Below are positions 19,554 to 35,602 of a stretch of DNA of 42,725 bases, one piece after another. Origin of the DNA: a virus; the IMG/VR virus record IMGVR_UViG_3300005831_000074, positions 1 through 42,725 of that record; one strand, 5' to 3'. A program made the position numbers and the translations under genes. Numbering within the stretch: the stretch's first letter is position 1; every line of letters begins with the position of its first letter. The notes under the pieces were generated by a model, which was not told where the DNA came from, searched no databases, and saw nothing but the letters and a program-made list of their open reading frames with translations.

Positions 19554-21793
19554 TATTTATTTGTTTTAGGTGGTTGTTTAGGTTGTGCTTGTATCTTAGC
19601 AAGGTCAAAGGTTCCCTTAATCTTACTATCGTTTAATTTTGTTCTGCTTGAAATCAATGCTCTCTGATTCTGACCTTCGTTCTTCATCTGAGTGTCCTGC
19701 ATCTGAGCTTGCATTTGTTGTTGTGCCTGTTGTTGTTCAAGTGCCTTCATCTTCATCTGAAGCTCCTGTTCCTGTTGTTGTGCAGCCTGTGCTTGTTGCT
19801 CCTCAAGTGCTTTACGTAAGCCTCTTCTGCGTTGGAACTTACGAACAGCAACGGAGGTGTCTTGCTCCATCATGATTGCTAACGCATCGTCTATGAAGGT
19901 AGGATCGCTTTGAACTGTCATCATCAACAGAGATTCTAGTTTCTGTCTGTCGATGAACATTGGAGGTAATGCTTCTACAAATGCGCCAAACTCATCTAAG
20001 TCTAAATCAATATGCTCCTTCAAAAAGTCTACACCTGTAGAACCAATGATAGGGGCAAATACTTCTGGTGAATGAGGGAATACTATTTTAACAAGTTTGG
20101 CTTGTTGGTTAAGAACCCTTTCGTTGAATCTGCGGAAGCCGTTAAAGTATGGCGCAGTGATAAGGTTTGATGCTGTTAGTGCTGACTGCTGTACCGTTGG
20201 TGAGAGTGATGATCCAGAGATAACTCCCTGTCTCTCAGGACTTACGCCTGATATTTTATCCATCTCGTTATCATAGAATCTCATGATTTCTATATACTGT
20301 GCTATACTTTGAGAGAGGGTCATGTCGAACTCACGGAAGGTGCTGGCATTACCCGGCATCATTTGTGATTCCTTAGAGTTGATGAACATAACACCAAATA
20401 CCCTCATGTACTTCATGGCTTGCTCTGGTGTCCATCCTGCGGGAACCATCGCCAAGTCGTAGGTCATACCCCTAGCCCCTGCTCGTGTCATGGCTACGCT
20501 CATGTTGTACATGGCTATATCCTTTGACAACTGAATAGATGCCATCTGCTCTACCTTGCTCACTCCACGACCACTAGCGAAGTTAGGTATCCATCCCTTG
20601 TAGGGTGGTTCTGCTATCTCTAGTTCTGATAGGTTTCTTGCTTGGTTAGGGCACTCACCCCATTCTCTTATAATCTTACCGCCTATAATAGTACACTGTC
20701 TCCAAACCTGCATCTTGTTAGTGATGATGTTTGACTTGTCTCTATTGCGTACTTTATCTGTAATCTCTTGAAGATGTTCTGTTCCGTACTTTTCATTGAT
20801 CTCATGCTTGTGCTGCATGACCTTGTAATCATCCCACACAGCTCTTGTTACTAAAACTCGTAACTGCCCCTCTATTTCCTTGAACCACTTTAGTCTGCCG
20901 TTAGCTATTGTCCTAAAAGCATAGTTGTCATCGGCACTACCAGCAGAACCAACACTGGCTGCTGCCCATTGTGAGTAGGAAGTATATACGTCCTTGATTT
21001 CGTCATCTGAAAGATTGAACCTCTCAGCGGCCTGACCTATTGAAATATACTCTAATTCTCCAAAGTAAGTAGCGTCCTCTAGGGTGTCTGTCTTGCAGGA
21101 TGGGTCTATAACCATGTTTAGGGGGCTGATCCTCCTAGCTCTTGGTACACCCCGTACAATCTCGTTTCTCACAAAGCAACGCCCTGTGATCAGCACATCC
21201 CTGAACAGAAGCCTTCTTTCCTCGTCCCAATCGTTCTTTTTAGCCAAGAACTTCAGAGCTGACTCCATAATGATTTCAGCCTTATCCTTAAATGTAAGGT
21301 CTATGTATTCGTCTAGTTCCTTGTCTGTTTGGGGGATGTACTCGTCTGTTGTTACCTGAAGACCTGTTTGTTGCTCTAAGGTCTGCATGATCTCTTGTAA
21401 TCTCCTCTCTACCCTTAATCTTTCCTTCTCCTCTAACTTCCTAGATATGGCCTCCTTGTTAAGTGCCCTTACCTTTATCTCGTAACCCCTTGCCTCTAAT
21501 TCCCCAGTAAGTAAGTCTACTTTTGTAGGTAACGTGTTGAGACTCAGCCACATAGCTGGCAGGTCTGTGCCATCTTCTGCTTTTTGAAGGTGCTGTGTAA
21601 GCTCTCCGTTACTACCCTCCTCTAAGAACTTATAGCACTCCTGAAAGAGTCTATAGTTATTAGCGTAACCATCATCAATACAGTGATTGATTATGGCTCG
21701 TGCAAATTGTTCGTGGTAGGTTTTGTTTTTGTCTTTGGTGTCTAAGCGGGGAAATGCGTAAGAACCAGTTGAGGGTTTGTCTGTTGGTTGCAT
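19553..21793 (-). CDS. Portal protein
   Basis: A 746-residue protein next to the large terminase gene. It shows the features of large Bacteroidota phage portals: an N-terminal helical region with LPTKVDLLTGELEARGYEIKV (about 88-108), a wing with RDVLITGRCFVRNEIVRG, the strand motif RARRISPLNMVIDPSCKTDTL, a crown or stem helix region (VSKVEQMASIQLSKDIAMYN) and a SGVSPERQGVISGSSLS segment. The C-terminal tail (about 665-715) is a Gln-rich coiled coil (LEEQQAQAAQQQEQELQM), often disordered in portals. It forms the dodecameric packaging channel. First gene after promoter-like site 21837-21856. Confidence 0.85.
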   Translation of the reverse strand: MQPTDKPSTGSYAFPRLDTKDKNKTYHEQFARAIINHCIDDGYANNYRLFQECYKFLEEGSNGELTQHLQKAEDGTDLPAMWLSLNTLPTKVDLLTGELEARGYEIKVRALNKEAISRKLEEKERLRVERRLQEIMQTLEQQTGLQVTTDEYIPQTDKELDEYIDLTFKDKAEIIMESALKFLAKKNDWDEERRLLFRDVLITGRCFVRNEIVRGVPRARRISPLNMVIDPSCKTDTLEDATYFGELEYISIGQAAERFNLSDDEIKDVYTSYSQWAAASVGSAGSADDNYAFRTIANGRLKWFKEIEGQLRVLVTRAVWDDYKVMQHKHEINEKYGTEHLQEITDKVRNRDKSNIITNKMQVWRQCTIIGGKIIREWGECPNQARNLSELEIAEPPYKGWIPNFASGRGVSKVEQMASIQLSKDIAMYNMSVAMTRAGARGMTYDLAMVPAGWTPEQAMKYMRVFGVMFINSKESQMMPGNASTFREFDMTLSQSIAQYIEIMRFYDNEMDKISGVSPERQGVISGSSLSPTVQQSALTASNLITAPYFNGFRRFNERVLNQQAKLVKIVFPHSPEVFAPIIGSTGVDFLKEHIDLDLDEFGAFVEALPPMFIDRQKLESLLMMTVQSDPTFIDDALAIMMEQDTSVAVRKFQRRRGLRKALEEQQAQAAQQQEQELQMKMKALEQQQAQQQMQAQMQDTQMKNEGQNQRALISSRTKLNDSKIKGTFDLAKIQAQPKQPPKTNK

Positions 21794-21836
21794 GAATTAA
21801 GTTAGGTAAGGCACGGCCATCGCCCAAAAAACAATA

Positions 21837-21856
21837 CACATCAAATATCATGCCAA
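21837..21856 (-). promoter_or_regulatory. GG-N10-GA promoter-like site before the portal
   Basis: The minus strand reads TTGGCATGATATTTGATGTG, two differences from the copies at 14534 and 30152. It lies in the non-coding gap between terminase and portal; the expected start is about 35 bases before the portal ATG at 21793. The leader includes GGGCGATGGCC, which can form only a weak stem. Confidence 0.6.
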
Positions 21857-21941
21857 ATGGGTATTCACAGTACCCATATCATGATAATGTTAAAGATAAT
21901 TAACAAATAACCTCGTTATGTTCATAATATTTAACATTATC

Positions 21942-21957
21942 GCAAATCGAGATTTGC
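21942..21957 (-). terminator. Short palindromic hairpin after the terminase gene
   Basis: GCAAATC at 21942-21948 and GATTTGC at 21951-21957 form a compact stem 22 bases past the terminase stop. There is no clean T run, so it is either a weak terminator, an mRNA 3' end stabiliser or a protein-binding palindrome. Nearby AT-rich sequence up to the promoter shows nothing else convincing. Confidence 0.35.
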
Positions 21958-21978
21958 AATATTCCATATTATAATACG

Positions 21979-24900
21979 TTATAAACCGGGAAATAAAGAC
22001 GATTTTGGTCTTGCTTGTGAGGCTGGTTGTTTTCCAGTAACAAGCTGAATAACACCATTCTGCTTTATATAGTTCACCGTTGGGTTCATATTTAAACTCT
22101 CTGCTGTGTTTTTGGCTACAGTCTTGTCCCCCTGCATAACAGCCAAACACCATCCAAAGGCTACAGCTAAGTCATCGTCCTTACCTCTCTCTCCAAATAC
22201 ACCAAACTCGTCTATTAAACGGACAGAAGGAATGAATGTAGAGTAGTTTTCTACATAGGCTGTTATCAGTCCCTTCATCTGTTGTTTTCGATCCGCTGTC
22301 ATCTTCACACCGTGCTTCAGCATGACTCCTCCTCTCGCTGAGTTGGGAGAGGCTGGTGTTAAGGCCAGAAGATGTGGGTAGTGCTGTTCAAACCAATCAA
22401 GCATTCTCCATCCCCCTTTGTTTAATTCTATATGAAGGGGTGAATTTCCATACCACCGTATTAACATCGCTAAGTGCTCATAATACGTGTGCAGTTTCTT
22501 AGGGCGGTCACAGTACTCCGCAACTAACTTAGGTGGTTCTAGGCCATATGGTCGTGATACAACAGCCGTTGATACGTTGGATGTATCTCTTGTCTTTTCT
22601 ACATCGTCATCCTCTGCCGGGTCGCAGTTATGTGTTGTTAAATGATGGCATAAAAAGGTATTAGTTTCACATTCAAAATTATAAACAGTTCCTGTATAAA
22701 GGCTCGTTCTTACTTCCCTTATTCTGAAATAAATATAATCTAATGATTTATCAATAAAACACAGGTACTCCGGGTTCTTTCTTTTTTCTGGTAGTGCTTT
22801 TATGTCTATTCTCTCTAGTTTTAGATTATTTCTATTATCTAACATCTTAGCTAATAGTATAGTATTATGATGAGCCAATCTTAAATGATAGCATGGTTTT
22901 GTTTCACTAGGTGATCTGTTTATTTTAAAAAAATGAACCCCTTCTTTTCTTAATAAAGATAAACCACTAACCACTCCTAATGAGAACAGAATATCTTGTA
23001 TTCCTTCTAATAAACCAAGATTTATACTAACAAATTCTATTGTATATTCTACACCTCTTCTCTCTGTTTTTATGACAGAACCGTCTGAGTCAAGATACCC
23101 TGTTATTAATTGTTTTTTATAGTCTTCCTCTATGTATTTTACCCATTCTGGTATCTTTTTACCAATAGCGTATTTACCAAAGTTTTCAGTTAAAAAAGTA
23201 TTTAACTGTTGAAAACAGAACTTACAAGAGGTAGACCCGTTTCTAGTTAAAAAAGAAATTTCTCTATCGAATAGTCGTTTTATTACACCAGTAAATCTAT
23301 CAATATACTCTGTTTCTTTTTCATTAAAACTAACAGTAATATTATAACCATTACGTTCACACCATCCGTCACCCAGCCATATTCCAACAAACCACCAAAA
23401 GTCAGGATCATTGAGTGGATTTTGTGTATGTCTATCTACTCTATATCCAAAATTATCCCACCGAGTAGTATAATCAAAATTTGATTTTTTTCTGTATAAA
23501 TTGGGGATTTTAACCCAATCTCCTTTTTTTACATCAGATGCTGGTTTATATTTGAAATCAAAATCGTGATAACCAACACCAGACCTGTTATTCCTCCAAT
23601 CAGTATAATCTCTTTTTCTATTGTGTTCACTTACCAATATAGGATGCTCATGAGTAAAGCTGGTTTCTCTAAATGTATTAGCCGATTTAATAGTATATAT
23701 GGGGTCATTTAAAACATCGTATTGTATCAGTTTTTTTATAGATACTTCGTCTCCTTTTTCGTTTATTAATTTGTTGTCTAAAGTTACATCTTCTATATTA
23801 GAAAGTCCTGTTTCTGTTAAAACCTTTTCTCCTTCTGGTAAACAACAAATTATGTATCCGTTCGTCCTGTTAGGGTCTGGTCTGTCGTAGATGACGATCT
23901 GACCTGTAGCGGGGTCTGGATAGAACTCAGGAGGAGATACTATGTTCTCAACTCTTGGTTTCATCCATCCTGTTACTTTGATAGGAGGATTGTCGAATAG
24001 GTGAAGTCTTTGCTTGCCTAATAGGATAGGGTCACCAACTCCCCCGCCACTTGCATCTAGGAATGCGTCTGATTCATTGAGAGGGTACTTCTGTACAAAC
24101 TTGTTGAATACGTAGCGTGATCCTGATTCTCTTTTCTTCCTTTCATAGATGATCCACCTGACAGAATCCTCTATCATGTCGTTACCTAACTCATCGACTA
24201 TCAAGCAATTATATCCCCAAAAGGCGTATTGCTCTAAGTCATAGTTGGTATGGTTTTTCCAAAATTCAAGTAAGTCCTTACCTACCTTATTAGTATCACC
24301 AACCGTTCCAAAGATATATGGTTTCCCAACCCTAATACCGTCTTGCATAATACAGTCCTCAGCATTAGCCCATATAGGGATAATCTCTGTCTCTCCTGCC
24401 TCATCCATTACTAGCTTCAGATATTGATTACCTGCGTGTCCTGCGGGAGTAGGTGCAACAGAGATAATGGATGATTGTGTTCCTGAGAACTTCTTGGTCT
24501 TCTTGTCCCACTCACCAAAGAACATGGCATCTCTCCTGTCTGTTGATACTCGTGCCCGTATGAAGGGAAGCAGGTTTCTGTGTACGTACTTATGCTTGAT
24601 GAAGAAGTTTCTACTGTCTGTTTCTGATTTTGAGTTCATGCCTATGTCGAACTCAGTATTGAAGGTACAGTCGTAGATATTATCAACAGCCATGTCCCAG
24701 CTCATCCCTACCTGTCTTCTTTTTATCATCACCACACCACCACCACCAGATGTCTTGCTAATTCTGTCCTTTACCATTGCCCACTCAAGCTGCTTGGCTC
24801 TGAAGGTGGGTCTGATCTTACCTCTCTTCTTATGTTTAATATAAGCGTGATTGAAAAAGAAATAATACCTGCCCGGCATACCATCGTATCCATTAATACA

Positions 24901-25107
24901 GCGTCTTATCTCTTCTAATTCCCAATCCATCTGCTCACGTTTCTCTGTAGCTTTGAAATCAGGTATTACGATGTGGCTATACTTCTTCTTTACCTTAAAG
25001 GGGTTGCCAGCGTTAATTCTAGCTACGTTAAACGCAACCTCAGCCTCTAAGTCCTCCTTGTATTCGTTCTTAGGGATAATGGTTGACGATTCTTCCTTTA
25101 CAATCAT
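21979..25107 (-). CDS. terL: Terminase large subunit interrupted by an intein
   Basis: A 1042-residue precursor; removing the 406-residue intein (422-827) leaves 636 residues, a normal TerL length. ATPase: Walker A-like KRRQVGMSWD at about 129-138, Walker B LVMDEA at 232-237, motif III GTVGD at 267-271. Nuclease (RNase H-like): first Asp in CDPAEDDD (Asp829), further acidic residues toward the C-terminus including KDDDLAVAFGWC. The protein cuts and pumps phage DNA through the portal. Its start overlaps the stop of the sugar gene 25104-25862 (ATGA), so packaging and sugar genes are one unit. Splicing is required for function because the intein lies directly before the nuclease Asp. Confidence 0.92.
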   Translation of the reverse strand: MIVKEESSTIIPKNEYKEDLEAEVAFNVARINAGNPFKVKKKYSHIVIPDFKATEKREQMDWELEEIRRCINGYDGMPGRYYFFFNHAYIKHKKRGKIRPTFRAKQLEWAMVKDRISKTSGGGGVVMIKRRQVGMSWDMAVDNIYDCTFNTEFDIGMNSKSETDSRNFFIKHKYVHRNLLPFIRARVSTDRRDAMFFGEWDKKTKKFSGTQSSIISVAPTPAGHAGNQYLKLVMDEAGETEIIPIWANAEDCIMQDGIRVGKPYIFGTVGDTNKVGKDLLEFWKNHTNYDLEQYAFWGYNCLIVDELGNDMIEDSVRWIIYERKKRESGSRYVFNKFVQKYPLNESDAFLDASGGGVGDPILLGKQRLHLFDNPPIKVTGWMKPRVENIVSPPEFYPDPATGQIVIYDRPDPNRTNGYIICCLPEGEKVLTETGLSNIEDVTLDNKLINEKGDEVSIKKLIQYDVLNDPIYTIKSANTFRETSFTHEHPILVSEHNRKRDYTDWRNNRSGVGYHDFDFKYKPASDVKKGDWVKIPNLYRKKSNFDYTTRWDNFGYRVDRHTQNPLNDPDFWWFVGIWLGDGWCERNGYNITVSFNEKETEYIDRFTGVIKRLFDREISFLTRNGSTSCKFCFQQLNTFLTENFGKYAIGKKIPEWVKYIEEDYKKQLITGYLDSDGSVIKTERRGVEYTIEFVSINLGLLEGIQDILFSLGVVSGLSLLRKEGVHFFKINRSPSETKPCYHLRLAHHNTILLAKMLDNRNNLKLERIDIKALPEKRKNPEYLCFIDKSLDYIYFRIREVRTSLYTGTVYNFECETNTFLCHHLTTHNCDPAEDDDVEKTRDTSNVSTAVVSRPYGLEPPKLVAEYCDRPKKLHTYYEHLAMLIRWYGNSPLHIELNKGGWRMLDWFEQHYPHLLALTPASPNSARGGVMLKHGVKMTADRKQQMKGLITAYVENYSTFIPSVRLIDEFGVFGERGKDDDLAVAFGWCLAVMQGDKTVAKNTAESLNMNPTVNYIKQNGVIQLVTGKQPASQARPKSSLFPGL
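22627..23844 (-). mobile_element. Intein with LAGLIDADG homing endonuclease inside TerL
   Basis: Residues 422-827 of the terminase precursor (406 residues). N-terminal splice block: Cys422 in CLPEGEKVLTETG. Block B: TxxH at Thr485-His488 in SFTHEHPILV. Endonuclease motifs: FVGIWLGDGW (573-582) and LITGYLDSDG (667-676), each with the catalytic Asp. C-terminal block: VYNFECETNTFL, then THN with penultimate His826 and Asn827, followed by extein Cys828. All residues of a class 1 splicing reaction are present, so it is probably active. The exteins join as ...YIIC-CDPAEDDD, exactly at the first nuclease Asp, a highly conserved target typical of homing. Confidence 0.92.
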
Positions 25108-25862
25108 AAATTAAAGTAATTAGGTACTATTTTGATCTTACTCCCCTTATATCGTTCTATTCCGGGATTAGATTCTATATCGTAATTTTCGTACTCCTTA
25201 ATAAATTTTTCTATTTGTTTTTCTGACCATTTCATGGGCATATACCTGTTCTTGTATTTTTCCATAATGTCTGTTCTTATGTGAGAATAGTTATGAACAA
25301 TCAGCTCGTCTTCGTTGAATATGTGCCACGTTCCAGTAGTATTTATCTTTACTGCCGGGTCTACTAATACAGGATACTTAGCTACTTTTGTGAATTTAGT
25401 ATGAGGATACAGCTTAATGGTAAAGGGCATATACCATTCAACAATGGGCGTTATCTGCCATGTTGGGTGCTTATAGTACTGATGTGTTTTCGTGAATGAT
25501 ACATCATACGTTAAAGCCTTTTCTAATACGTTATGAATGAGATGTGATTCATAGAAGTGATCAACAGCAGATAGAATAAAATGCGTACCCCCCTCGGCAC
25601 GAGCAACAGCAGCCATTTGTGTGTGCTTCTTCATCTCATTTCGCTTAAAGTTCCAATGCTTATCAGGCACAAACTTGTCTATGATCACTTTTGGATGGTT
25701 TTTGAAGAGAGGTATGATAACATCTCCCACCTTTCTTCTTTCGCCAACATGAGATACATCCTGATAACAGATAATGATTTTGTCGCAAATACTTTCATAA
25801 TTTGCGACACATTTTTCTAAAAACTCTAAACCATTAAATGCTGTTATACCTACTATGATCAT
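25104..25862 (-). CDS. GT2-like glycosyltransferase or related nucleotide-sugar protein
   Basis: A 252-residue protein with a GT-A-type N-terminus (MIIVGITAFNGLEFLEKCVANYESICDKIIIC) where the first strand and helix of a family 2 glycosyltransferase are visible. SAVDHFYE at about 98-105 could supply the metal or sugar-nucleotide Asp. The C-terminal third is basic and aromatic (MPMKWSEKQIEKFIKEYE). It is last of the six sugar genes and overlaps both the amidotransferase stop and the terminase start by four bases. Donor and acceptor are unknown. It is divergent, so the fold call is moderate. Confidence 0.6.
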   Translation of the reverse strand: MIIVGITAFNGLEFLEKCVANYESICDKIIICYQDVSHVGERRKVGDVIIPLFKNHPKVIIDKFVPDKHWNFKRNEMKKHTQMAAVARAEGGTHFILSAVDHFYESHLIHNVLEKALTYDVSFTKTHQYYKHPTWQITPIVEWYMPFTIKLYPHTKFTKVAKYPVLVDPAVKINTTGTWHIFNEDELIVHNYSHIRTDIMEKYKNRYMPMKWSEKQIEKFIKEYENYDIESNPGIERYKGSKIKIVPNYFNL

Positions 25863-26929
25863 TTGCAGTACTTAGCGTATGCTGTTGATGGGAATACTCC
25901 GATCTTCATTAGTAACCAGAATAATGGCTTTAATCCCCTGAAGTCTGTCATCTTGTAGTCGCTTCGTTTACCCACAGACGAATGACTCACAATATGAAGT
26001 ATGTGATTTTTACGATCACCTAAATCTTCAAAATTAAAGGTGGCTGGTGTGTCAAGTATTAATTTAGCTACTTCCTTGGTTAGATTGCCTTCTCGTATTT
26101 GTGCTGACAAGTATGTTCTGCGTTTGTCAATACCAAACTTTGTAGGTAGTAAGAAATTACCAATAAATGCCGTGTAGATGTTTTCGTTATGCTTACCACC
26201 ATAATCCTTCCATCCTAACGCTTTCAGGTTGCGTAGGATATGCTGTCTGTTGAAATCGTCATAGTGGAATGGACGTACTTGTCTGATGCCTCGTACCCCG
26301 GCTACGATTTGATCCCATACGGTATAGAGTGGATAGTTTCTCATTTTACCCCAGAACTTCTCATATACTGACTTAACATACGTGTAGTCGATAATGCTCC
26401 ACGCTTTAGGGGAACTACCCTCTTCCCTGAACGAATGACCATTAAAGATATATTTAATTCCATAATTCAGTGCTGTTGTGTGCATTAGTTTAGCCATACA
26501 CACATCGTTTGCTAAGTCTGCGTCCTGTACACCAGCCATTAGAAACGAGTCACACAGTCTGTCGTATTCGCCTTTATCTATAAAATATTCAATGAAGTTT
26601 ACATTAAGTTCTTTAACGAGTAGTCTTATGTTATGGTCTGCTTCAGGTCTGTTTGTATGATTGTTGAAGTGAATTACAAGTGGTCTTAACCCCCATACAA
26701 ACACAGCTAGATAAAGCATGACAGAACTGTCCTCTCCCCCACTAATACCAATCAAACAGTCATACTGCTTACCTTTGCCCTTCTTCTTTATTTCCTCTAG
26801 CTTCCCCTCCCATTCTTCGGGGTTAGATGCCTCACGAAGTTTATCTTGTAATTTGCAATACTCGCAAATACCATCATCGTGGATTTTTGCTATCGAGTCA
26901 TCGAATAAGCAGATTTTACATTCTGTCAT
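25859..26929 (-). CDS. WbpG-like N-acetyl sugar amidotransferase (PP-loop ATPase)
   Basis: A 356-residue protein matching the N-acetyl sugar amidotransferase family (WbpG/PseA-like). An N-terminal zinc-type motif (Cys4, Cys7, Cys22, Cys25: CKIC and CEYC) precedes the PP-loop SGGEDSS at 63-69. The following segment carries LRPLVIHFNNH, family-typical of adenylating sugar amidotransferases. Known members convert a sugar N-acetyl to an acetamidino group using ammonia made by HisH/HisF-type partners, in LPS or flagellin glycan synthesis. No such partner lies in this window, so ammonia would come from the host or free pool. Full length, no visible lesions. Confidence 0.85.
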   Translation of the reverse strand: MTECKICLFDDSIAKIHDDGICEYCKLQDKLREASNPEEWEGKLEEIKKKGKGKQYDCLIGISGGEDSSVMLYLAVFVWGLRPLVIHFNNHTNRPEADHNIRLLVKELNVNFIEYFIDKGEYDRLCDSFLMAGVQDADLANDVCMAKLMHTTALNYGIKYIFNGHSFREEGSSPKAWSIIDYTYVKSVYEKFWGKMRNYPLYTVWDQIVAGVRGIRQVRPFHYDDFNRQHILRNLKALGWKDYGGKHNENIYTAFIGNFLLPTKFGIDKRRTYLSAQIREGNLTKEVAKLILDTPATFNFEDLGDRKNHILHIVSHSSVGKRSDYKMTDFRGLKPLFWLLMKIGVFPSTAYAKYCK

Positions 26930-27549
26930 AAAATTGTTAGTTTGATTGGTATATTTTTTAGTTTAGCATTCTTATATTCACCGTGGGATAATGCTCTGAG
27001 TATGTTATAAAACTCACCGAAAGTGCCTGTCTGTTCTTGGTCTAATTCACAAAGACTTTTATAATCCTTAAATGAGTTGTAGTTACTCGCCTCTTCGGGG
27101 TAAAAGGCAACAATCTCCCCATTAACTATCATTTGTAAGTTCTTGGCAAGCAACTCTTCCTCTGTCTTTAGAATCCTCTCATAAAGAGTTTCGGATGTAT
27201 CTGTTTCTAATACTGGCACTTGTTCTCTTACAAAGATAGGGCCAGTATCAATATTCTCATCAATCTGGTGTATTGTTACCCCCGCTGGTAATCCGTTTAT
27301 AATCGAGAATACATGAGGGAACATCCCTCTGTTATAGGGATTATAGCCGGGATGAACATTAATACATTTAACGGCTTCTGTCAGTTTTTTTGGGAAGATT
27401 TTCTTACAATGGAGGGATACAATAACATCCTCCTTCAGTAAGTCATCTGAGTTAATATCAACGTTATCGCTGTGTATGAATTGCCACTCACCCTTGAAGC
27501 ATGGCTTCATGCGTTTCATTACATCGTTGTTGCTGTAAATAACAATCAT
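26926..27549 (-). CDS. Sugar N-formyltransferase
   Basis: A 207-residue formyltransferase. The ATG at 27549 (MIVIYSNNDVMKRMKP) overlaps the previous stop as ATGA, and is preferred over an in-frame TTG two codons upstream. The catalytic triad of folate-dependent formyltransferases is visible: Asn64 in NVHPGYNPYNRG, His94 in AGVTIH and Asp101 in ENIDTGPIF. The pattern, including the family's Asn-Pro-Tyr-Asn-Arg-Gly stretch, fits enzymes that formylate the amino group of 4-amino-4,6-dideoxy or related sugar nucleotides with N10-formyl-THF. It follows the aminotransferase gene, which could make its substrate. Confidence 0.88.
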   Translation of the reverse strand: MIVIYSNNDVMKRMKPCFKGEWQFIHSDNVDINSDDLLKEDVIVSLHCKKIFPKKLTEAVKCINVHPGYNPYNRGMFPHVFSIINGLPAGVTIHQIDENIDTGPIFVREQVPVLETDTSETLYERILKTEEELLAKNLQMIVNGEIVAFYPEEASNYNSFKDYKSLCELDQEQTGTFGEFYNILRALSHGEYKNAKLKNIPIKLTIL

Positions 27550-28184
27550 TGCCAAAGTTTAAATTTTGATAGATCAGGGTAGGACATGGTTATGTCCTCA
27601 TTATGTTTTTTACTACCATCAAAGTTGTAGAACTGTCTCATGAGTAGCAAGCCTCTTGTTGCTATCTCAGGCATCATATAAAAGTTCCAGCCGATTACAG
27701 GGTTCTCGTCAAAGTTATCAACGTGATAGGAACATTCTGACCTACCACTGAATCTTGCTTTTTTAAACCACTCGTAGGCGTGTTTATCGTCTGTTAGTAT
27801 CGCCCCTCCCTTACTTAGTTTTAAATGCTTGTATGGCCCAGTAAAGCTAAGACACATGAACTTCCCCTTTTCGTACAGGTCTGCTGTAAAGCGTAAGGAT
27901 GAATCTATTACAGCAGTTTTGCCCAATCGGTACGCCCCTGTTATTGTTTCCCCTTCAACAGGCTCAAACTCAACAATACCCCCAGCGTGAATAATTTCGC
28001 AAGGAACGCTCATGTAGGTTCTTGCTGGTATCTTTACACGAAGTCCTTCTATGTTGTAATAAGTAAGGGCTAAGAATAAAGCATTACTACAGTTGTCTAC
28101 TGTTACAGCGTAGGGAGCGCCTGTGTATTCACAAAGTGCTTCCTCAAACATATCAGTTGCTACATACGGGCCTCTTGGGTTCAT
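27546..28184 (-). CDS. Short DegT/DnrJ/EryC1-type sugar aminotransferase
   Basis: A 212-residue PLP-dependent aminotransferase of the DegT/StrS family, about half the usual 360-400 residues. It contains the large domain: YAVTVDNCSNALFLAL (phosphate-binding region), AVIDSS with Asp94 for the pyridine nitrogen, and SFTGPYKHLKLSKGGAI with Lys119 as the Schiff-base lysine. The sequence ends after NFYMMPEIATRGLLLMRQF, where the usual C-terminal small domain would begin. It may be a compact natural form, since no broken remnant follows and the gene overlaps its neighbours cleanly (ATGA both sides). It would aminate a keto-sugar nucleotide supplied by the host. Confidence 0.8.
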   Translation of the reverse strand: MNPRGPYVATDMFEEALCEYTGAPYAVTVDNCSNALFLALTYYNIEGLRVKIPARTYMSVPCEIIHAGGIVEFEPVEGETITGAYRLGKTAVIDSSLRFTADLYEKGKFMCLSFTGPYKHLKLSKGGAILTDDKHAYEWFKKARFSGRSECSYHVDNFDENPVIGWNFYMMPEIATRGLLLMRQFYNFDGSKKHNEDITMSYPDLSKFKLWQ

Positions 28185-28912
28185 TTTAAACTTTGTTTAA
28201 CAGCCTCAGCGACTTTTTTATTTATACTTCCTATAGATGTCGCTTCAATACTGATGCGATATTTTATATAGTCTATGGTTTTCCATGCGAAACAATTTGG
28301 TAAATCTGAAACGTTTGTTATTACATTTCTTCCCTTTAATCCTAAATGAATAACGGTCTGTCCTCCCCCGGCAAATCCAGACAAACACAATCCTATAAAG
28401 CATTGATCATATTGTCTGTTGCCCTCGCCTGCCAACCATTGATCCTGTGGTATTGAACCATCACCTATAATAAATTCATAGGGTAACTCTCTTTGAAGTT
28501 GTTCTATCAGGTTTAACCTGTGGTAGGATGAGTGTGATGACGGTGCGTATGCGAAGATTTTACTACCAAGGGGGGTTACGTCAAACTCTCCTCCCAATAG
28601 GAGTGGCTTCTCAAGTTCTATATTTATGAACGGCTTTAGTGCTTTATAGACGTTAAGCAGGCTTGTTACGTGCTTACAGTGTTGTAGACATATGTGCCAT
28701 CCGTTGAATATACAGGTCATAGCGTCCTGACCACACCAGAAAATAGTTACCTCTGATTGATGATCAAGTATTGTTTTTAAATCGTATTCCGTATAACACC
28801 CTATAAACAAACAGGGTCTAGACGAATCTATATATTCTGTTAATCCTAATTTTTCTCTGAACGGGAAGTCAGATACGCTTTTAGATATATAACACTGTTG
28901 TATTCGACTCAT
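28181..28912 (-). CDS. GT-B-like glycosyltransferase, tentative
   Basis: A 243-residue protein. Alternating hydrophobic strands and Gly-rich turns suggest a Rossmann or GT-B half: PCLFIGCYTEYDL near residues 33-45, SKIFAYAPSSHSSYHRLNLI in the middle and YDQCFIGLCLSGFAGGGQTV followed by a helix. The last resembles the nucleotide-sugar-binding loop of GT-B enzymes. Length fits a single truncated or small GT. Placed between GT2 and aminotransferase with ATGA overlaps on both sides. No family is assigned with confidence. Confidence 0.5.
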   Translation of the reverse strand: MSRIQQCYISKSVSDFPFREKLGLTEYIDSSRPCLFIGCYTEYDLKTILDHQSEVTIFWCGQDAMTCIFNGWHICLQHCKHVTSLLNVYKALKPFINIELEKPLLLGGEFDVTPLGSKIFAYAPSSHSSYHRLNLIEQLQRELPYEFIIGDGSIPQDQWLAGEGNRQYDQCFIGLCLSGFAGGGQTVIHLGLKGRNVITNVSDLPNCFAWKTIDYIKYRISIEATSIGSINKKVAEAVKQSLK

Positions 28913-29793
28913 GCTATTTTATTGTATTCTGGGAAATAGGTATCACAAAAAGCGGTAGGGTTATCTATTCTCCTTGATGGAATCATATTAGACCAATGCT
29001 CTTCAAATTTATGTTTATTAATCCACAAATCAGTAGATATTGATAAACTGCATATCGACTTATTATAAACTATTTTGTGTTCGTTTTTGAACTTTTTAAA
29101 CATATTATAATCCAATCCAAAGTTTAACGTGTTATGAAATGGTTTATAATCTATCATTTCAAGACCTTCTCTTGATATAAGTCTTCCTATTCCTATTGAT
29201 TCGTCTGGTCTGTAATGAGTGGTGTTTGGGTTTGATCCAAACTTATAACCCGGCCAATATACGAGCCTGTATTGTGTTGGTATTTTTTTAATATTGTATT
29301 TTAAATACGATGATGGGGTGTGGGTAGCAATATCTAAGAAATAACATCCTGCCTTTCCTACCACATATGTATGATTATCTAAATAAGGAAGCATGACAGA
29401 AAGCCATTTATCGCTAACCCAATCCGATGACCCCATGAATAATACAGCATCTGGATTAAGAGATTTTGATCTTTTGAAACAGGCATTCCACTTCTCCCCT
29501 AAATATCTGTTATCGTGTTTTATAAAAATAGCACCAGCATCCTCGCACGTTTTCTGATCTTCTGGTTCACCAGCACATATAACAGCAGAGCAACCATTCT
29601 TGTTAAGAAGGCGTTCTATTGTATGCTTTAACAGAGGGTGTCTCCCATGAACGGGTATAACAGCAACTACCTTCTCTTTTATTTTAAGAGGGGGTTGTTT
29701 TACGGGAGAAGCGAGGGGGGTTGATGAAATTACCTGTTGGCTGGGTGGCGGGGCTGAGGTAGCTAAATCATCGTTAGCAAAGAAATTAAACAT
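28909..29793 (-). CDS. GT2-family glycosyltransferase with low-complexity N-terminal extension
   Basis: A 294-residue protein. Residues 1-40 are unusual: MFNFFANDDLATSAPPPSQQ then Ser/Pro/Lys-rich linker, before the GT-A core starting VVAVIPVHGRHPLLKHTIE (42-60). AVLFMGSSDWVSDKW (about 116-130) has the Asp expected for metal or donor binding. Further hallmarks of a GT2: a strand-helix alternation and a C-terminal acceptor-binding region (LISREGLEMIDYKPFHN). The N-terminal tag could mediate binding to a virion or membrane partner. First gene of the sugar cassette, after terminator 29821-29849. Confidence 0.75.
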   Translation of the reverse strand: MFNFFANDDLATSAPPPSQQVISSTPLASPVKQPPLKIKEKVVAVIPVHGRHPLLKHTIERLLNKNGCSAVICAGEPEDQKTCEDAGAIFIKHDNRYLGEKWNACFKRSKSLNPDAVLFMGSSDWVSDKWLSVMLPYLDNHTYVVGKAGCYFLDIATHTPSSYLKYNIKKIPTQYRLVYWPGYKFGSNPNTTHYRPDESIGIGRLISREGLEMIDYKPFHNTLNFGLDYNMFKKFKNEHKIVYNKSICSLSISTDLWINKHKFEEHWSNMIPSRRIDNPTAFCDTYFPEYNKIA

Positions 29794-29820
29794 AATATAA
29801 ATATTTTAGTAAATAAGAAA

Positions 29821-29849
29821 GGGCTGGGAGCTGATTCGCCCCGCAGCCC
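29821..29849 (-). terminator. Rho-independent terminator after 29874-30098
   Basis: Minus strand GGGCTGCGGGG and CTCCCAGCCC form a GC-rich stem (GGGCT/AGCCC plus an inner imperfect GC part) followed by TTTCTTATTT. It lies 25 bases past the stop of 29874-30098 and separates that small unit from the sugar-terminase operon. Confidence 0.6.
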
Positions 29850-29873
29850 AATCATAGGGAGGTAAGAAAAATC

Positions 29874-30098
29874 TTACGTGTAGGCACTCGCGTCAGTTGC
29901 CGACATTGCTGTTGCAAGTTCTGCTACTTCTGCGTCTACCTCAAACTGCCAGCCATTCACAAGCACTAGTGCCCGTGTGTTGCTGTCAAGGGGTAGGATC
30001 ACGAACTTGTCGCTTTCTACCACCACTGTTTTGTCTTCGGTGACGGTTTGCCCACTTGGAGCAATACTCTTAGTCACAGCTAAAATTAGTTTTGACAT
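29874..30098 (-). CDS. Small isolated late gene, decoration-like, unknown
   Basis: A 74-residue, beta-predicted protein (MSKLILAVTKSIAPSGQTV at the start; VILPLDSNTRALVLVNGW in the middle) with an Ala/Thr-rich acidic tail (AELATAMSATDASAYT). It has no Cys and no catalytic motif. It is flanked by its own promoter-like site (30152-30171) and terminator (29821-29849), i.e. a monocistronic late-type unit. Such an arrangement suits an abundant product such as a capsid decoration protein. Function inferred from the unit's architecture only. Confidence 0.6.
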   Translation of the reverse strand: MSKLILAVTKSIAPSGQTVTEDKTVVVESDKFVILPLDSNTRALVLVNGWQFEVDAEVAELATAMSATDASAYT

Positions 30099-30120
30099 TG
30101 TTTATTTGGTTTAGGTCTAT

Positions 30121-30139
30121 TTAACCAACCTTTGGTTAA
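30121..30139 (-). other. Leader hairpin of the 29874-30098 transcript
   Basis: TTAACCA and TGGTTAA (seven bases each) with a five-base loop lie five bases downstream of the transcription start expected from site 30152-30171. It has no T run, so it is a 5' structure and not a terminator, perhaps protecting the mRNA. Similar early hairpins follow the sites at 14534 and 36826. Confidence 0.45.
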
Positions 30140-30151
30140 TCTCATAATGGG

Positions 30152-30171
30152 TACATCAAATATCGTGCCAA
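30152..30171 (-). promoter_or_regulatory. GG-N10-GA promoter-like site before 29874-30098
   Basis: The minus strand reads TTGGCACGATATTTGATGTA, the same 20 bases as 14534-14553. It begins directly after the stop of 30172-30441, with a leader of about 45 bases before the ATG at 30098. Strongest evidence for the family, together with 14534. Confidence 0.65.
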
Positions 30172-30441
30172 TTAGATTAAATCAACAAAACCATCAGTAC
30201 AGGTTACTTTAAAGGGTGGAGCGTATGGCCTGTACCCCCTTGTGTAAATAAAGTGGTCGGTTAGAGTAGGAGGATGATGTTGTGGAAATATATCACCATT
30301 CCAAAAGGGTGTATTGTCTTGTGTGATAGCAAACCCCCACCACTCGTTGGGTATTGCTGCCCTTAACTTACCAATGTCATCAAAAGTATACACCCCCACG
30401 AGGGTAATCTCTTTCTTGTCTAAGTCTACTGTAAATTTCAT
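30172..30441 (-). CDS. Small protein, unknown, last gene before a promoter-like site
   Basis: The ATG at 30441 (MKFTVDLDKKEITLVGVYTF) is preferred; an in-frame start at 30543 would lie inside 30443-31333. The 89-residue product is rich in aromatics, His and Pro (NEWWGFAITQDNTPFWNG, RGYRPYAPPF). The pattern suggests a compact beta protein. It follows the metallophosphoesterase by one base. No function is recognised. Confidence 0.6.
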   Translation of the reverse strand: MKFTVDLDKKEITLVGVYTFDDIGKLRAAIPNEWWGFAITQDNTPFWNGDIFPQHHPPTLTDHFIYTRGYRPYAPPFKVTCTDGFVDLI

Positions 30442-30442
30442 A

Positions 30443-31333
30443 TTAGCTGTATTTTTTGCCTCCGAAGTAAAAATGGTTATGATGTATGATCTGCTGTAGG
30501 TGGTAGTCACCCTTCTCGTCAACATTGACAACAGCGAACCCATTCTGCCACATTGATTTTGTTCCCCGTGGAGCGTAGTTGAAGAAGGGGTGTGTTACAT
30601 CTCCTCCCCAGCCTATGTTGAATCCACCAGTGGTTCCCTCTATGTAGGTTTGGATACGATGGCTGTGTACGAAGGCGGCTGATCCCCTGTAAACATCTAT
30701 TGTCTTCTTGGCACAATGTACGTTGTAGTACTGACCATGAAACACATCTAAGTGGTTGCCAAGGGTCACCTTGTCGTCCTTCCATTTAGTGTAGGAATGA
30801 AATCCCTTCTCTGTTAAGCCTAAACCAGTTATGGGTGATCTCAGGGGTCGTTTAGCTGACTCCATCTCTGACATATACCTGTTATAGCGATCTTCATGAT
30901 TACCATACAGAAATATCTTTTCTGTGTTGGGTGACAGGGGAGTGACTAACTGACTGAGTAACTTCTCACCCTCTTCGTATTCTTCATCCAACGTGAGTCC
31001 CGGCACGGCTGCGAACCTGCCTGTGTCGTGTGATGAGAGTGAGTTTAAGTCTATAAAGTCGCCCATTAAAACAAGTCCTACCAAGTCCTTGCTGTAATCA
31101 GTGATGAGGTTTGTTATACCGTTCATCATTGCTACGTTGTGACCGGGAGCATGGACGCATCCAAGGAGGAGGTACATTCCCTCCTTCTTGAACTGCGTGG
31201 GTTTAGGTGGTTGTAATGGTTCTGGTATCGGGTCAGAAAACTCCTCGTGGTAGTTCGCTATCTTCTCCTTTAACAGTTTGAAGAGTTCGTACTCTACGGG
31301 AGTCATTCTGGGCCTGTATTCTTTTTCTGGCAT
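30443..31333 (-). CDS. Calcineurin-like metallophosphoesterase
   Basis: A 296-residue metallophosphoesterase. Motifs are in family order: GCVHAPGHN (58-66), LMGDFIDLNS (89-98), LYGNHEDRY (142-150), FHGQYY (His199) and FVHSHR (His223, His225). In motif I the usual Asp-x-His is Cys59-Val-His61, so one metal ligand is altered, which could change metal use or activity. Phage members act on DNA ends, nucleotides or phosphorylated proteins. The N-terminal ~50 residues are charged and Pro-rich. It shares a base or overlaps with the upstream gene 31333-31611. Confidence 0.8.
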   Translation of the reverse strand: MPEKEYRPRMTPVEYELFKLLKEKIANYHEEFSDPIPEPLQPPKPTQFKKEGMYLLLGCVHAPGHNVAMMNGITNLITDYSKDLVGLVLMGDFIDLNSLSSHDTGRFAAVPGLTLDEEYEEGEKLLSQLVTPLSPNTEKIFLYGNHEDRYNRYMSEMESAKRPLRSPITGLGLTEKGFHSYTKWKDDKVTLGNHLDVFHGQYYNVHCAKKTIDVYRGSAAFVHSHRIQTYIEGTTGGFNIGWGGDVTHPFFNYAPRGTKSMWQNGFAVVNVDEKGDYHLQQIIHHNHFYFGGKKYS

Positions 31334-31611
31334 TAGAAGGGTAAATCCGTGCTATCAAAATCAAGAGATTTCTTCTTGCCTGATGGTTTTTCTGATTGGG
31401 CGGGGGTTGATACTTTTAATGGCTCCATGGACAGCTTGTTAGGGTCAGCTTTTGTATAGTTAAGTTTGAACTTAACCATTCCCCGGCTGTCCTCTTCTGC
31501 ATCCTGAAGGTACTCAATCATCTGTTTCTTGTTTATGTCCATGCTAAAGAAGTCTCCGTATATTCCAGTTTTCTTAGTGATAAACACACCATTTACATAT
31601 TTGGTTTCCAT
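31333..31611 (-). CDS. Small replication-associated protein with SSB-like C-terminal tip
   Basis: A 92-residue protein. Residues 1-60 look like a small compact fold (VNGVFITKKTGIYGDFFSMD, FKLNYTKADPNKLS), followed by a disordered linker (STPAQSEKPSGKKK) and the end SLDFDSTDLPF. An acidic tail finishing in Asp-Leu-Pro-Phe resembles the C-terminal tip by which SSB proteins recruit partners. It may be a small ssDNA-binding or accessory protein; the tail is what is seen, the role is inferred. Confidence 0.6.
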   Translation of the reverse strand: METKYVNGVFITKKTGIYGDFFSMDINKKQMIEYLQDAEEDSRGMVKFKLNYTKADPNKLSMEPLKVSTPAQSEKPSGKKKSLDFDSTDLPF

Positions 31612-31613
31612 TA

Positions 31614-31775
31614 TTATTGTTGTTTGTTAATTAAAAATTCATAAATTTTCTCGTACTGCTCGTGAAAGATTTTTGGGTCTGACACTTGTTTGTCCATAAA
31701 GAACTGAACGGTTAGCTCTACTGCTTTCGTTCTTAGTTCTATCTCACGTTCCTGATCTGTTTGATAATTGTCCAT
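31614..31775 (-). CDS. 53-residue helical protein, unknown
   Basis: An ATG at 31775, sharing one base with the upstream stop (TAATG), opens 53 codons ending in TAA at 31614. The product starts MDNYQTDQEREIELRTKAVE and continues with FFMDKQVSDPKIFHEQYEKI. It is highly charged and helical. It is tightly placed between 31775-32014 and 31333-31611, which supports it being translated. Function unknown. Confidence 0.65.
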   Translation of the reverse strand: MDNYQTDQEREIELRTKAVELTVQFFMDKQVSDPKIFHEQYEKIYEFLINKQQ

Positions 31776-32014
31776 TATTGTATCGGTTGGGTTGCTTCTG
31801 GTGGAGCGTCTTCCCCTGCTATGGGAGTCACGGTCTCATCCACTAATAACTCAGGTGATGGTTCCTTCACATCCTCATCAAAGGTAATGTTAACAGCGGT
31901 GTTAAGCATCTTCAGATAGGGAAGTGCTTCCTTTGCTGTGCGGTTCATAAAGTACTCATAGAGTGTGTCTAACTGCTCTTTGGTTAGTCCATAAAAAATC
32001 TTAGTTTCTTTCAT
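31775..32014 (-). CDS. Small protein with acidic disordered tail, unknown
   Basis: A 79-residue protein: a helical N-terminal half (MKETKIFYGLTKEQLDTLYE, about 1-45) and an acidic, Pro-rich C-terminal half (EDVKEPSPELLVDETVTPIA). No motif. The stop shares a base with the next start, and the start overlaps the previous stop (ATGA). Part of the run of small early genes. Confidence 0.6.
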   Translation of the reverse strand: MKETKIFYGLTKEQLDTLYEYFMNRTAKEALPYLKMLNTAVNITFDEDVKEPSPELLVDETVTPIAGEDAPPEATQPIQ

Positions 32015-34674: not shown

Positions 34675-35012
34675 CGGTTGTTGTAGCCCTCTATCATTTT
34701 ATCCTGTAACTCTTTGTTAGTAAGTAAGTTATACTTACCCTTGATCTTCTTGATCTCGACTCTGGTTAGTGAATCGTGAGCAGATATACTCCTAACAAGA
34801 GTAGTAATGCTGTCAATCCTATGATTATAAAGCACCCGCTGTTGTTCGGATTCTCGAAGTCTCCGCTTGTATTCCAGTGTCTCTGAGTGATATTTCCGTT
34901 GAAGCTCATTGTGCAGTAGTTTTAAATTTTTAGTATAATAACCTCCAAACAAGGAACCGCCAATTACAATAATTAACAGCCCTATTATGATATAGTTTTT
35001 CACTTTTTCCAT
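34671..35012 (-). CDS. Rz-like i-spanin candidate
   Basis: A 113-residue protein: one N-terminal transmembrane segment (about 7-27, YIIIGLLIIVIGGSLFGGYY) and a long charged helical ectodomain (LRESEQQRVLYNHRIDSITT and on), ending without further TM. This is the layout of the inner-membrane spanin Rz. No nested outer-membrane lipoprotein (Rz1) is seen, but 33930-34301 next door could supply the outer-membrane side. Call is from topology only. Confidence 0.6.
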   Translation of the reverse strand: MEKVKNYIIIGLLIIVIGGSLFGGYYTKNLKLLHNELQRKYHSETLEYKRRLRESEQQRVLYNHRIDSITTLVRSISAHDSLTRVEIKKIKGKYNLLTNKELQDKMIEGYNNR

Positions 35013-35602
35013 TCTTCAAGTATTGTAGCAACTTTCTCATATAGCTGTTCTAACGTACCATCGTTAGTAATGGTTACATCAAAGTGCTTATAATTATCAA
35101 GAGCAGTCTCTGATGGGTGATAGCTGTTGTATTTAGAATCTCTTACCACCCTGATAAGCATACCACCCTTAGCCAATACTCTGTCAGCCTCGTTAGGAAA
35201 TCTCACATCTGTTATAATCCATTTAGAGGTATGGTAGTAATCAGCAAACATGGCATTTACCCATATATCCTTATGTATAACATCACGCATCGCCTCTGTG
35301 CCTATCTTCTGTAATAAATCTCTGTATGTCATGAGTCCCCATGCTTCAGGCATGAACTCAGCCTTAAACTCCTGATCCTCCCATTTAACAAGTGGTTCTC
35401 CTGTGAGGATGCTTGCTATCTGTTTTATCTTTGAGGCAAACTTCTTGATTTCAAAACCAGACCCATCCTCTAGCCACCACTCCTCATGAGGGTGAAGTGA
35501 ATCAACCAACAGAGGCTTAGGCCCCCGGCAATTAATCCACTGTATGATTTTACCAACAGTATCCTTTCCTGATCCAATCTTACCTGCAATTCCGTATATC
35601 AT
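35000..35602 (-). CDS. Deoxynucleoside monophosphate kinase
   Basis: A 200-residue P-loop kinase of the phage dNMP kinase family. The P-loop GKIGSGKDT is at residues 7-15, followed by LMTYRDLLQKIGTEAMRD (about 91-108), IWVNAMFADYY (nucleotide or lid region) and the family motif ITDVRFPNEAD (about 129-139), then an RVVRDS basic patch. It phosphorylates dNMPs to dNDPs for genome synthesis. It overlaps the i-spanin-like gene by 13 bases. Confident family match. Confidence 0.88.
   Translation of the reverse strand: MIYGIAGKIGSGKDTVGKIIQWINCRGPKPLLVDSLHPHEEWWLEDGSGFEIKKFASKIKQIASILTGEPLVKWEDQEFKAEFMPEAWGLMTYRDLLQKIGTEAMRDVIHKDIWVNAMFADYYHTSKWIITDVRFPNEADRVLAKGGMLIRVVRDSKYNSYHPSETALDNYKHFDVTITNDGTLEQLYEKVATILEEWKK

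Follow-up and report, generated by a model that had tools for sequence, protein, structure and literature searches.

Glycosylation of virions by phage-encoded enzymes has a precedent in mycobacteriophages (Freeman 2023, cited in PMC12619734), and virus-encoded rare amino sugars of a bacterial-like type have been proposed to glycosylate the virions of giant viruses of the Megavirinae (PMC10117803). The Flavobacterium phage vB_FspM_immuto carries a glycan cluster (gp169–gp181) in which a DegT aminotransferase is surrounded by glycosyltransferases, a methyltransferase, an epimerase and a pilin-glycosylation-type protein. N-acetyl-sugar amidotransferases (NASATs) are recognized by a PP-loop of the form SGGXDS and a tetracysteine motif, CXXCXn[GN]XCXXC (PMC10607449).

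We analysed a cassette of six open reading frames on the minus strand (25104–29793), followed by terL, in the IMG/VR virus record IMGVR_UViG_3300005831_000074 (positions 1 to 42,725; this whole 42,725-nt stretch is hereafter the window). The host of this uncultivated virus probably belongs to the Bacteroidota. Judged from their sequences, the six enzymes seem capable of making and attaching an unusual sugar rich in nitrogen.

Coordinates of the cassette genes and flanking features in the window
Feature	Position	Strand	Main evidence
GT2N, family-2 glycosyltransferase with 40-residue N-terminal tag (FANDDLATSAPPP...)	28909..29793	-	PF00535 1.2e-5
Compact GT-B glycosyltransferase, 243 aa	28181..28912	-	AF2 model and Foldseek
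Compact DegT/DnrJ/EryC1/StrS-type aminotransferase, 212 aa	27546..28184	-	PF01041 3e-16
Sugar N-formyltransferase, 207 aa from ATG 27549 (209 aa from TTG 27555)	26926..27549	-	PRK07579 8e-62
NASAT/WbpG/WbuX-type N-acetyl-sugar amidotransferase, 356 aa	25859..26929	-	TIGR03573 3e-45
GT2C, tentative GT-A-like glycosyltransferase, 252 aa	25104..25862	-	Weak PF00535 in relatives
terL with intein	21979..25107	-	phrog_6681 6e-37; intein and LAGLIDADG domains; ATGA junction with cassette
Terminator-like hairpin	29800..29870	-	GGGCTG..CAGCCC, then T-rich; immediately upstream of cassette

The initial annotation had described six genes joined by ATGA overlaps to each other and to terL, and this layout held: when the formyltransferase was started at its ATG instead of the TTG, which restored the ATGA overlap, all six junctions, including that between the cassette and terL, were 4 nt long. 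Outside the cassette, overlaps of 4 nt were found in 12 of the 42 neighbouring gene pairs of the window; such coupling is common across this genome, but an uninterrupted series of six is not. The hairpin (−24.4 kcal/mol, z −4.45; 0 of 200 shuffles equally stable) likely separates the cassette from the preceding genes, and because it sits just upstream, we regarded the cassette as the head of the terL unit. A promoter scan gave no signal above shuffles, the TAnnTTTG motif occurred at chance frequency and an Rfam search of positions 21000–32000 returned no match. All six cassette proteins look soluble, with no membrane segment predicted in any of them.

In the window NASAT, the PP-loop reads SGGEDS (S63, G64, G65, D67 and S68) and was invariant except for the X position in eight phage members. 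All four cysteines of its second motif (C4KIC7...G-I-C22EYC25) were likewise invariant in the phage members compared, while the G/N position of this motif was lost in the terminase_6N group. The TIGR03573 score of 155.3 bits was under the curated cut-off of 203.2, and we therefore assigned the protein, as a divergent member, to the NASAT superfamily instead of a proven WbuX subfamily; it also matched PDB 8wex (LpNASAT) at 6.6e-5. The phage NASATs formed a single clade with a stem of 1.13 changes per site and were at most 38% identical to the cellular NASATs found, and their dN/dS of about 0.04–0.1 indicated purifying selection. The window protein is a putative amidinating enzyme for an N-acetyl sugar, and none of the phage records tested encoded a HisH/HisF or glutaminase partner as ammonia donor.

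The aminotransferase scored 59.9 bits against PF01041 (cut-off, 19.8) and lacks the C-terminal domain of the full-length family, whose members have about 360–400 aa. Three of its residues, D94, K119 and N167, showed conservation of 97% or more across 54 sequences and, by our motif reading, would be the canonical PLP-site Asp, Schiff-base Lys and Asn. Its viral relatives were matched at 500 loci, where the stand-alone copies examined were 208–228 aa long, pointing to a compact viral subfamily to which the window enzyme belongs; these loci, the uniform lengths and the conserved site residues ruled out a broken pseudogene, and the DegT protein that had been noted as short is naturally compact. 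Elsewhere, the compact DegT occurs in glycan clusters; in the window it adjoins the formyltransferase. The latter matched PF00551 (5e-21), PDB 6v33 (7e-51) and VioF. It shares with VioF and other dTDP-4-amino-4,6-dideoxyglucose N-formyltransferases the formyl-transferase fold family, the N-x-H and D site residues (N64, H66 and D101) and the C-terminal dimerization domain, but its N-terminus is about 25–45 residues shorter than in the solved VioF-type enzymes; its PRK07579 score of 209.3 bits was below the model cut-off of 238, with an alignment beginning at profile position 46.

For the glycosyltransferases, the evidence came from different sources. The N-terminal tag of GT2N, earlier remarked upon as unusual, proved genuine; relatives share the NDDLA motif of this tag and also carry GSSDW and NKH motifs. 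The second gene had no family match by sequence or profile search. Its AF2 model (pLDDT 94, pTM 0.87) gave 38 PDB matches at E ≤ 0.001 by Foldseek with TMq of about 0.5–0.6; the top entries listed were all of glycosyltransferase type, with SdgB as the best PDB match (5e-8) together with SenB, WbnH and others. Viral GT-Bs were matched as well, and the model predicts a two-Rossmann GT-B fold. Homologues of GT2C were found only in two other loci (L094 and L095; 39–40% identity). PF00535 was matched at E 0.025 in two of the three members of this family, while the window protein itself matched neither PF00535 nor any other family, its structure model (pLDDT 48) was too poor for its Foldseek matches to be interpretable and hhalign of GT2C against GT2N gave an uninformative alignment; we tentatively regard it as a GT-A-like glycosyltransferase. 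Scans of IMG/VR with the single GT2C and GT-B sequences gave no matches. In sum, the enzyme classes initially proposed were supported by profiles for the GT2, the compact DegT, the formyltransferase and the WbpG-like protein and by the model for the GT-B, while the GT2-like nature of the sixth gene is only tentative.

We found NASAT encoded at 186 IMG/VR loci. A GT2 gene lay immediately upstream of it in all 57 distinct testable loci, and terL was within about 2.2 kb of the cassette core in 77 of 79. The terL-side module was present in three different packaging backbones, and in a fourth it lay within the head-tail operon; one backbone had a second GT2N-like gene after the major capsid gene. 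The slot between GT2 and NASAT held a GT-B, a methyltransferase, nothing, or a GT-B with a formyltransferase, and the combination of GT-B, DegT and formyltransferase was seen in the window only. By sequence, GT2 and NASAT are inherited jointly, and the window cassette is an extended version of a recurring module made up of GT2, variable slot and NASAT. The combination had first been described as unfamiliar in a phage late operon; its core of GT2, GT-B and NASAT proved widespread in uncultivated phages, usually beside terL, and it is the exact six-gene set that was seen only here. No match to NASAT or GT2N was found by tblastn against 50,697 named phages. Full-text literature searches, which covered subscription literature thinly and in part used narrow queries, did not turn up the module, and this is weak evidence of novelty.

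Our preferred reading, to which we give about equal credence and doubt, is that the cassette acts in the cytoplasm late in infection and glycosylates virion proteins with an acetamidino or N-formyl sugar before or during assembly. The compact DegT would transaminate a nucleotide 4-keto-6-deoxy sugar, taken to be host-made because none of the cassette genes encodes its synthesis, and the formyltransferase would N-formylate the resulting amine using 10-formyl-THF. NASAT would consume ATP and ammonia to convert a sugar's N-acetyl group to an acetamidino group, the simplest source of this sugar being host UDP-GlcNAc. GT2N and the GT-B, perhaps with GT2C, would move the sugars onto a capsid or tail protein, and the genes between GT2 and NASAT would form a swap slot that gives different phages a different final chemistry. 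To the extent that sequence can tell, these enzyme classes agree with the rare N-formylated or acetamidino sugar that the initial annotation had suggested.

A cytoplasmic acceptor is the simplest since the cassette proteins have no membrane segment, and of the three targets first proposed (virion proteins, DNA and the host surface), virion proteins are favoured because the cassette has no membrane proteins, no pyrimidine hydroxymethylase was found in 15 cassette-bearing records and the position among virion genes is fixed. Such arguments, from location and from solubility, are all indirect. SdgB is a protein glycosyltransferase and GtfA was also among the matches of the second gene, both pointing weakly, at the fold level, in the same direction. 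Against this reading, no acceptor extension was seen in the window capsid protein compared with that of a cassette-free relative (L233), and the cassette is dispensable in this lineage, a relative with terL 63% and capsid 67% identical being without it.

The same position and composition bear on the alternatives. An alteration of cytoplasmic O-antigen or capsule precursors, such that other phages or released progeny fail to adsorb to the cell or its debris, would fit three points: enzymes of the NASAT, DegT and formyltransferase types are typical of O-antigen synthesis, the nearest cellular NASATs are located in polysaccharide-type loci and Bacteroidota phages generally encounter capsules. We consider such surface modification unlikely, as a membrane flippase, a polymerase and a Gtr-like protein are all missing from the cassette, which is coupled to late packaging genes, not to lysogeny or early genes; an integrase was not noticed in the scanned parts, leaving little time for surface replacement.

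Glycosylation of modified bases in progeny DNA before packaging, for protection against nucleases, appears quite improbable. PF00303 (thymidylate synthase/hydroxymethylase superfamily) was found in none of the 15 cassette-bearing records, some of them fragments, while controls were positive, so that the usual base handle seems to be missing, and no DNA glycosyltransferase was among the best structure or family matches of the GT-B and GT2. These results outweighed the adjacency of the cassette to terL, a T4-gp1-like dNMP kinase encoded in the window (PF21448 8e-17) and the existence of virus glycosyltransferases that add glycans to DNA (Pyle 2024, cited in PMC12619734). That NASAT has left sugar chemistry and its PP-loop activates another acyl or carbonyl group (on a protein, nucleotide or base), with the linked genes only partly related, is very improbable given the invariant motifs, the GT2 linked in every testable locus and the amino-sugar enzymes recruited to the same slot, despite the long clade stem, the missing glutaminase partner and the score under the TIGR03573 cut-off.

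Returning to glycosylation of virion proteins, we put forward tentatively the wider claim that a phage-only, transferable module of GT2, swap slot and NASAT has settled next to terL in unrelated tailed phages and places cationic acetamidino and/or N-formyl sugars on their virions as an exchangeable chemical coat; the single-domain PLP aminotransferase, in its compact form, would be another viral innovation. The analysis suggests that rare-sugar decoration, most likely of the phages' own particles, is a common, unstudied phage strategy. If so, this trait would be common in uncultivated small phages, kept next to terL across different lineages, and missing from the cultured phage collections searched. 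The two-gene core would offer a small defined enzyme set for phage-glycan roles such as shielding, adsorption and evasion, and the biochemistry of the compact aminotransferase, the formyltransferase and the GT-B is itself of interest.

Compared with the known NASAT family (WbpG of Pseudomonas aeruginosa O5, WbuX of E. coli O145 and LpNASAT, 8WEX), the window protein agrees in PP-loop, tetracysteine, length and profile, while the phage enzymes form their own clade and are linked to GT2 and terL, not to O-antigen genes, without HisH/HisF in their records. The vB_FspM_immuto cluster shares the compact DegT (66% identical), but this phage has a 160-kb genome with no match to the window NASAT or GT2N, and no terL was annotated in the 20-kb stretch examined. 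Rare amino sugars proposed for virions are common to the window and the Megavirinae, which are eukaryotic viruses (PMC10117803). As far as the description cited in PMC12619734 goes, the mycobacteriophage genes resemble the cassette in encoding phage glycosyltransferases with virion proteins as the proposed target, while the window differs in its host group and in its amino-, formyl- and amidino-sugar chemistry.

In the window, which is itself a viral record of 42,725 bases, six minus-strand ORFs were read as leading into the terminase gene terL, and the ATGA joining of these genes to each other and to terL that the initial annotation had claimed was found at all six junctions, the terL junction included. 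Since 12 of the 42 neighbouring gene pairs outside the cassette also overlap by 4 nt, this overlap style is native to the genome, and the unbroken series of six has no equal elsewhere in it. A terminator-like hairpin lies directly 5' of gene 1 (-24.4 kcal/mol, z -4.45), so the terL unit probably begins with the cassette. Its G+C content (~0.37-0.40) is slightly lower than that of much of the flanking sequence (~0.42).

All of the enzyme kinds were known ones, as had been stated beforehand. Gene 1 encodes a GT2 (hereafter GT2N; PF00535, 1.2e-5). Gene 2 had no family match in sequence searches; its model from a 20-sequence alignment (pLDDT 94, pTM 0.87) was grouped by Foldseek with GT-B enzymes (SdgB, 5e-8; SenB; WbnH) and viral GT-Bs, which places it as a predicted GT-B glycosyltransferase. 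Gene 3 is a compact DegT (3e-16) without the C-terminal domain, directly followed by the N-formyltransferase, the arrangement expected for a formamido sugar. The latter, gene 4, was nearest to dTDP-4-amino-4,6-dideoxyglucose N-formyltransferases (PRK07579, 8e-62; PDB 6v33, 7e-51; VioF) and retains N64, H66 and D101. Gene 5 is a PP-loop enzyme of the N-acetyl-sugar amidotransferase (NASAT) type (WbuX TIGR03573, 3e-45, under the model cut-off; PDB 8wex, 6.6e-5) carrying both sequence motifs given for that family (PMC10607449). Gene 6 (GT2C) is tentatively a GT-A-like protein. Membrane segments were predicted in none of the six proteins.

Coordinates of features in the window and in related viral loci
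Record	Position	Strand	Feature
Window	21979-25107	-	terL
Window	~22620-23845	-	Intein in terL, sitting ahead of the CDPAEDDD motif and carrying a LAGLIDADG endonuclease domain
Window	27549	-	ATG, best placement of the formyltransferase start (207 aa)
Window	29659-29793	-	Short conserved tag x-[NDH]-DDL-x-..-P ahead of the GT2 domain
Window	35000-35602	-	T4-gp1-like deoxynucleotide monophosphate kinase (PF21448, 8e-17)
L233	2212-4172		terL as two ORFs, 4-nt overlap at 3408-3411
L095	6610-7143	+	Glyco-looking gene flanking the cassette in the morphogenesis operon, by eye
L095	10483-11130	-	As preceding
L003	9617-10315		Second GT2N-like gene among the head-tail genes of a phrog_9-type phage, close behind the major capsid gene
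L002	9913-10617		As preceding
L091	14867-15571		As preceding
L298	985-3675		~870-930-aa chain combining GT1 glycosyltransferase, FkbM methyltransferase and compact DegT
L302	4003-6621		As preceding
L317	3826-6612		As preceding

In IMG/VR, a single NASAT query found 9 loci, a NASAT alignment 186 and a GT2 alignment 176, and architectures were counted over 87 distinct NASATs. GT2N was immediately upstream of NASAT in all 57 with enough sequence, and terL was ~0.4-2.2 kb away in 77 of 79. Between GT2N and NASAT, the slot contained a GT-B (49 loci), a SAM methyltransferase named from sequence motifs (14), nothing recognised (16), a GT-B with a formyltransferase (one, the viral contig L003) or a GT-B with DegT and formyltransferase (one, the window). 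The combination initially described as unrecognised was therefore unique only in its full form: the exact six-gene order was found in the window alone among the loci compared, but the GT2-slot-NASAT module recurs, and L003 shares four of the six genes in conserved order.

L002/L003-type contigs carry the cassette with a phrog_9 terL on one side and a phrog_12 portal on the other; in L004-type contigs (~32 kb) it precedes a phrog_2/Terminase_6N terL, and in the window it precedes a phrog_6681 terL. With the profiles used here, these three terL groups had no cross-matches, suggesting that the terL-side position was reached repeatedly or kept through exchanges. In the contigs L094 and L095, as read from the sequences and not by family search, a ClpP-like head protease borders the cassette at one end and a long tape-measure-like ORF at the other, with a GT2C homologue (39-40% identity) on the opposite strand. 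In a quick tree the window NASAT clustered with those of phrog_9-type phages, whose GT2s have the N-terminal NDDLA tag in common with that of the window, so the window cassette is probably related to that line by transfer. The tag, which could be a docking peptide, was seen in L002, L003, L011, L014, L015 and L091 and was not present in the terminase_6N group.

In the cassette-free relative L233 (terL 63% and major head protein 67% identical to the window), the order is metallophosphoesterase, small ORF, terL and portal; searches without their own positive control gave no NASAT or GT2N match in this 31.7-kb record. Its terL reads through the intein site uninterrupted, and its being read as two ORFs could come from a frameshift, from splitting of the gene or from misassembly. 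Among phrog_2-type phages, whose terL genes share at least 87% identity, GT2N and NASAT were kept at every locus with enough upstream sequence. The low dN/dS of NASAT (~0.04-0.1) and the glycosyltransferases (mostly 0.04-0.24) indicates maintenance by selection; most terL pairs gave 0.02-0.05.

Phage NASATs formed a single clade in a quick tree (SH-aLRT 100, stem 1.13). The 80 cellular NASAT loci kept were at most 38% identical and chiefly from Bacteroidota; none had a phage-kind GT2N, GT-B or terL nearby, 35 had a HisH-like neighbour within 3 kb by motif recognition rather than family search, and the one read completely was surrounded by polysaccharide genes. PF00117 and PF00977 were absent from all 15 cassette-bearing records, so the ammonia donor is apparently not phage-encoded. 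The window portal resembles those of Flavobacterium, Cellulophaga and Bacteroides crAss-like phages and a BT4734-like primase is encoded, which together make a Bacteroidota host likely.

As the putative acceptor class we favoured virion proteins, a reading we hold at even chances, because the enzymes look soluble, the association with virion genes is fixed, a terminator-like hairpin stands in front and a second GT2N-like gene follows the capsid gene in one backbone, that of the phrog_9-type phages. DNA modification would be compatible with the T4-gp1-like kinase of the window, but PF00303 was found in none of the 15 cassette-bearing records, nor any thymidylate synthase/hydroxymethylase alongside that kinase in the window record, and we judged against it. 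Classical serotype conversion was likewise disfavoured, since the cassette has no membrane component.

Among the papers available in full text, none was found to describe the module in its compact form, the acetamidino/N-formyl chemistry predicted for it or its terL attachment across lineages, and core cassette genes had no tblastn match in any named phage searched. The compact DegT is a separate viral family: 500 viral loci matched, the best 80 of which are 64-70% identical, stand-alone copies measure 208-228 aa, and D94, K119 and N167 are conserved. In large phages, among them the cultured Flavobacterium phage immuto, it lies amid glycan genes. Phage-encoded glycosylation is itself already known, with precedent for virion glycosylation in mycobacteriophages, for which PMC12619734 cites Freeman 2023, and a further precedent indicated for giant viruses (PMC10117803).
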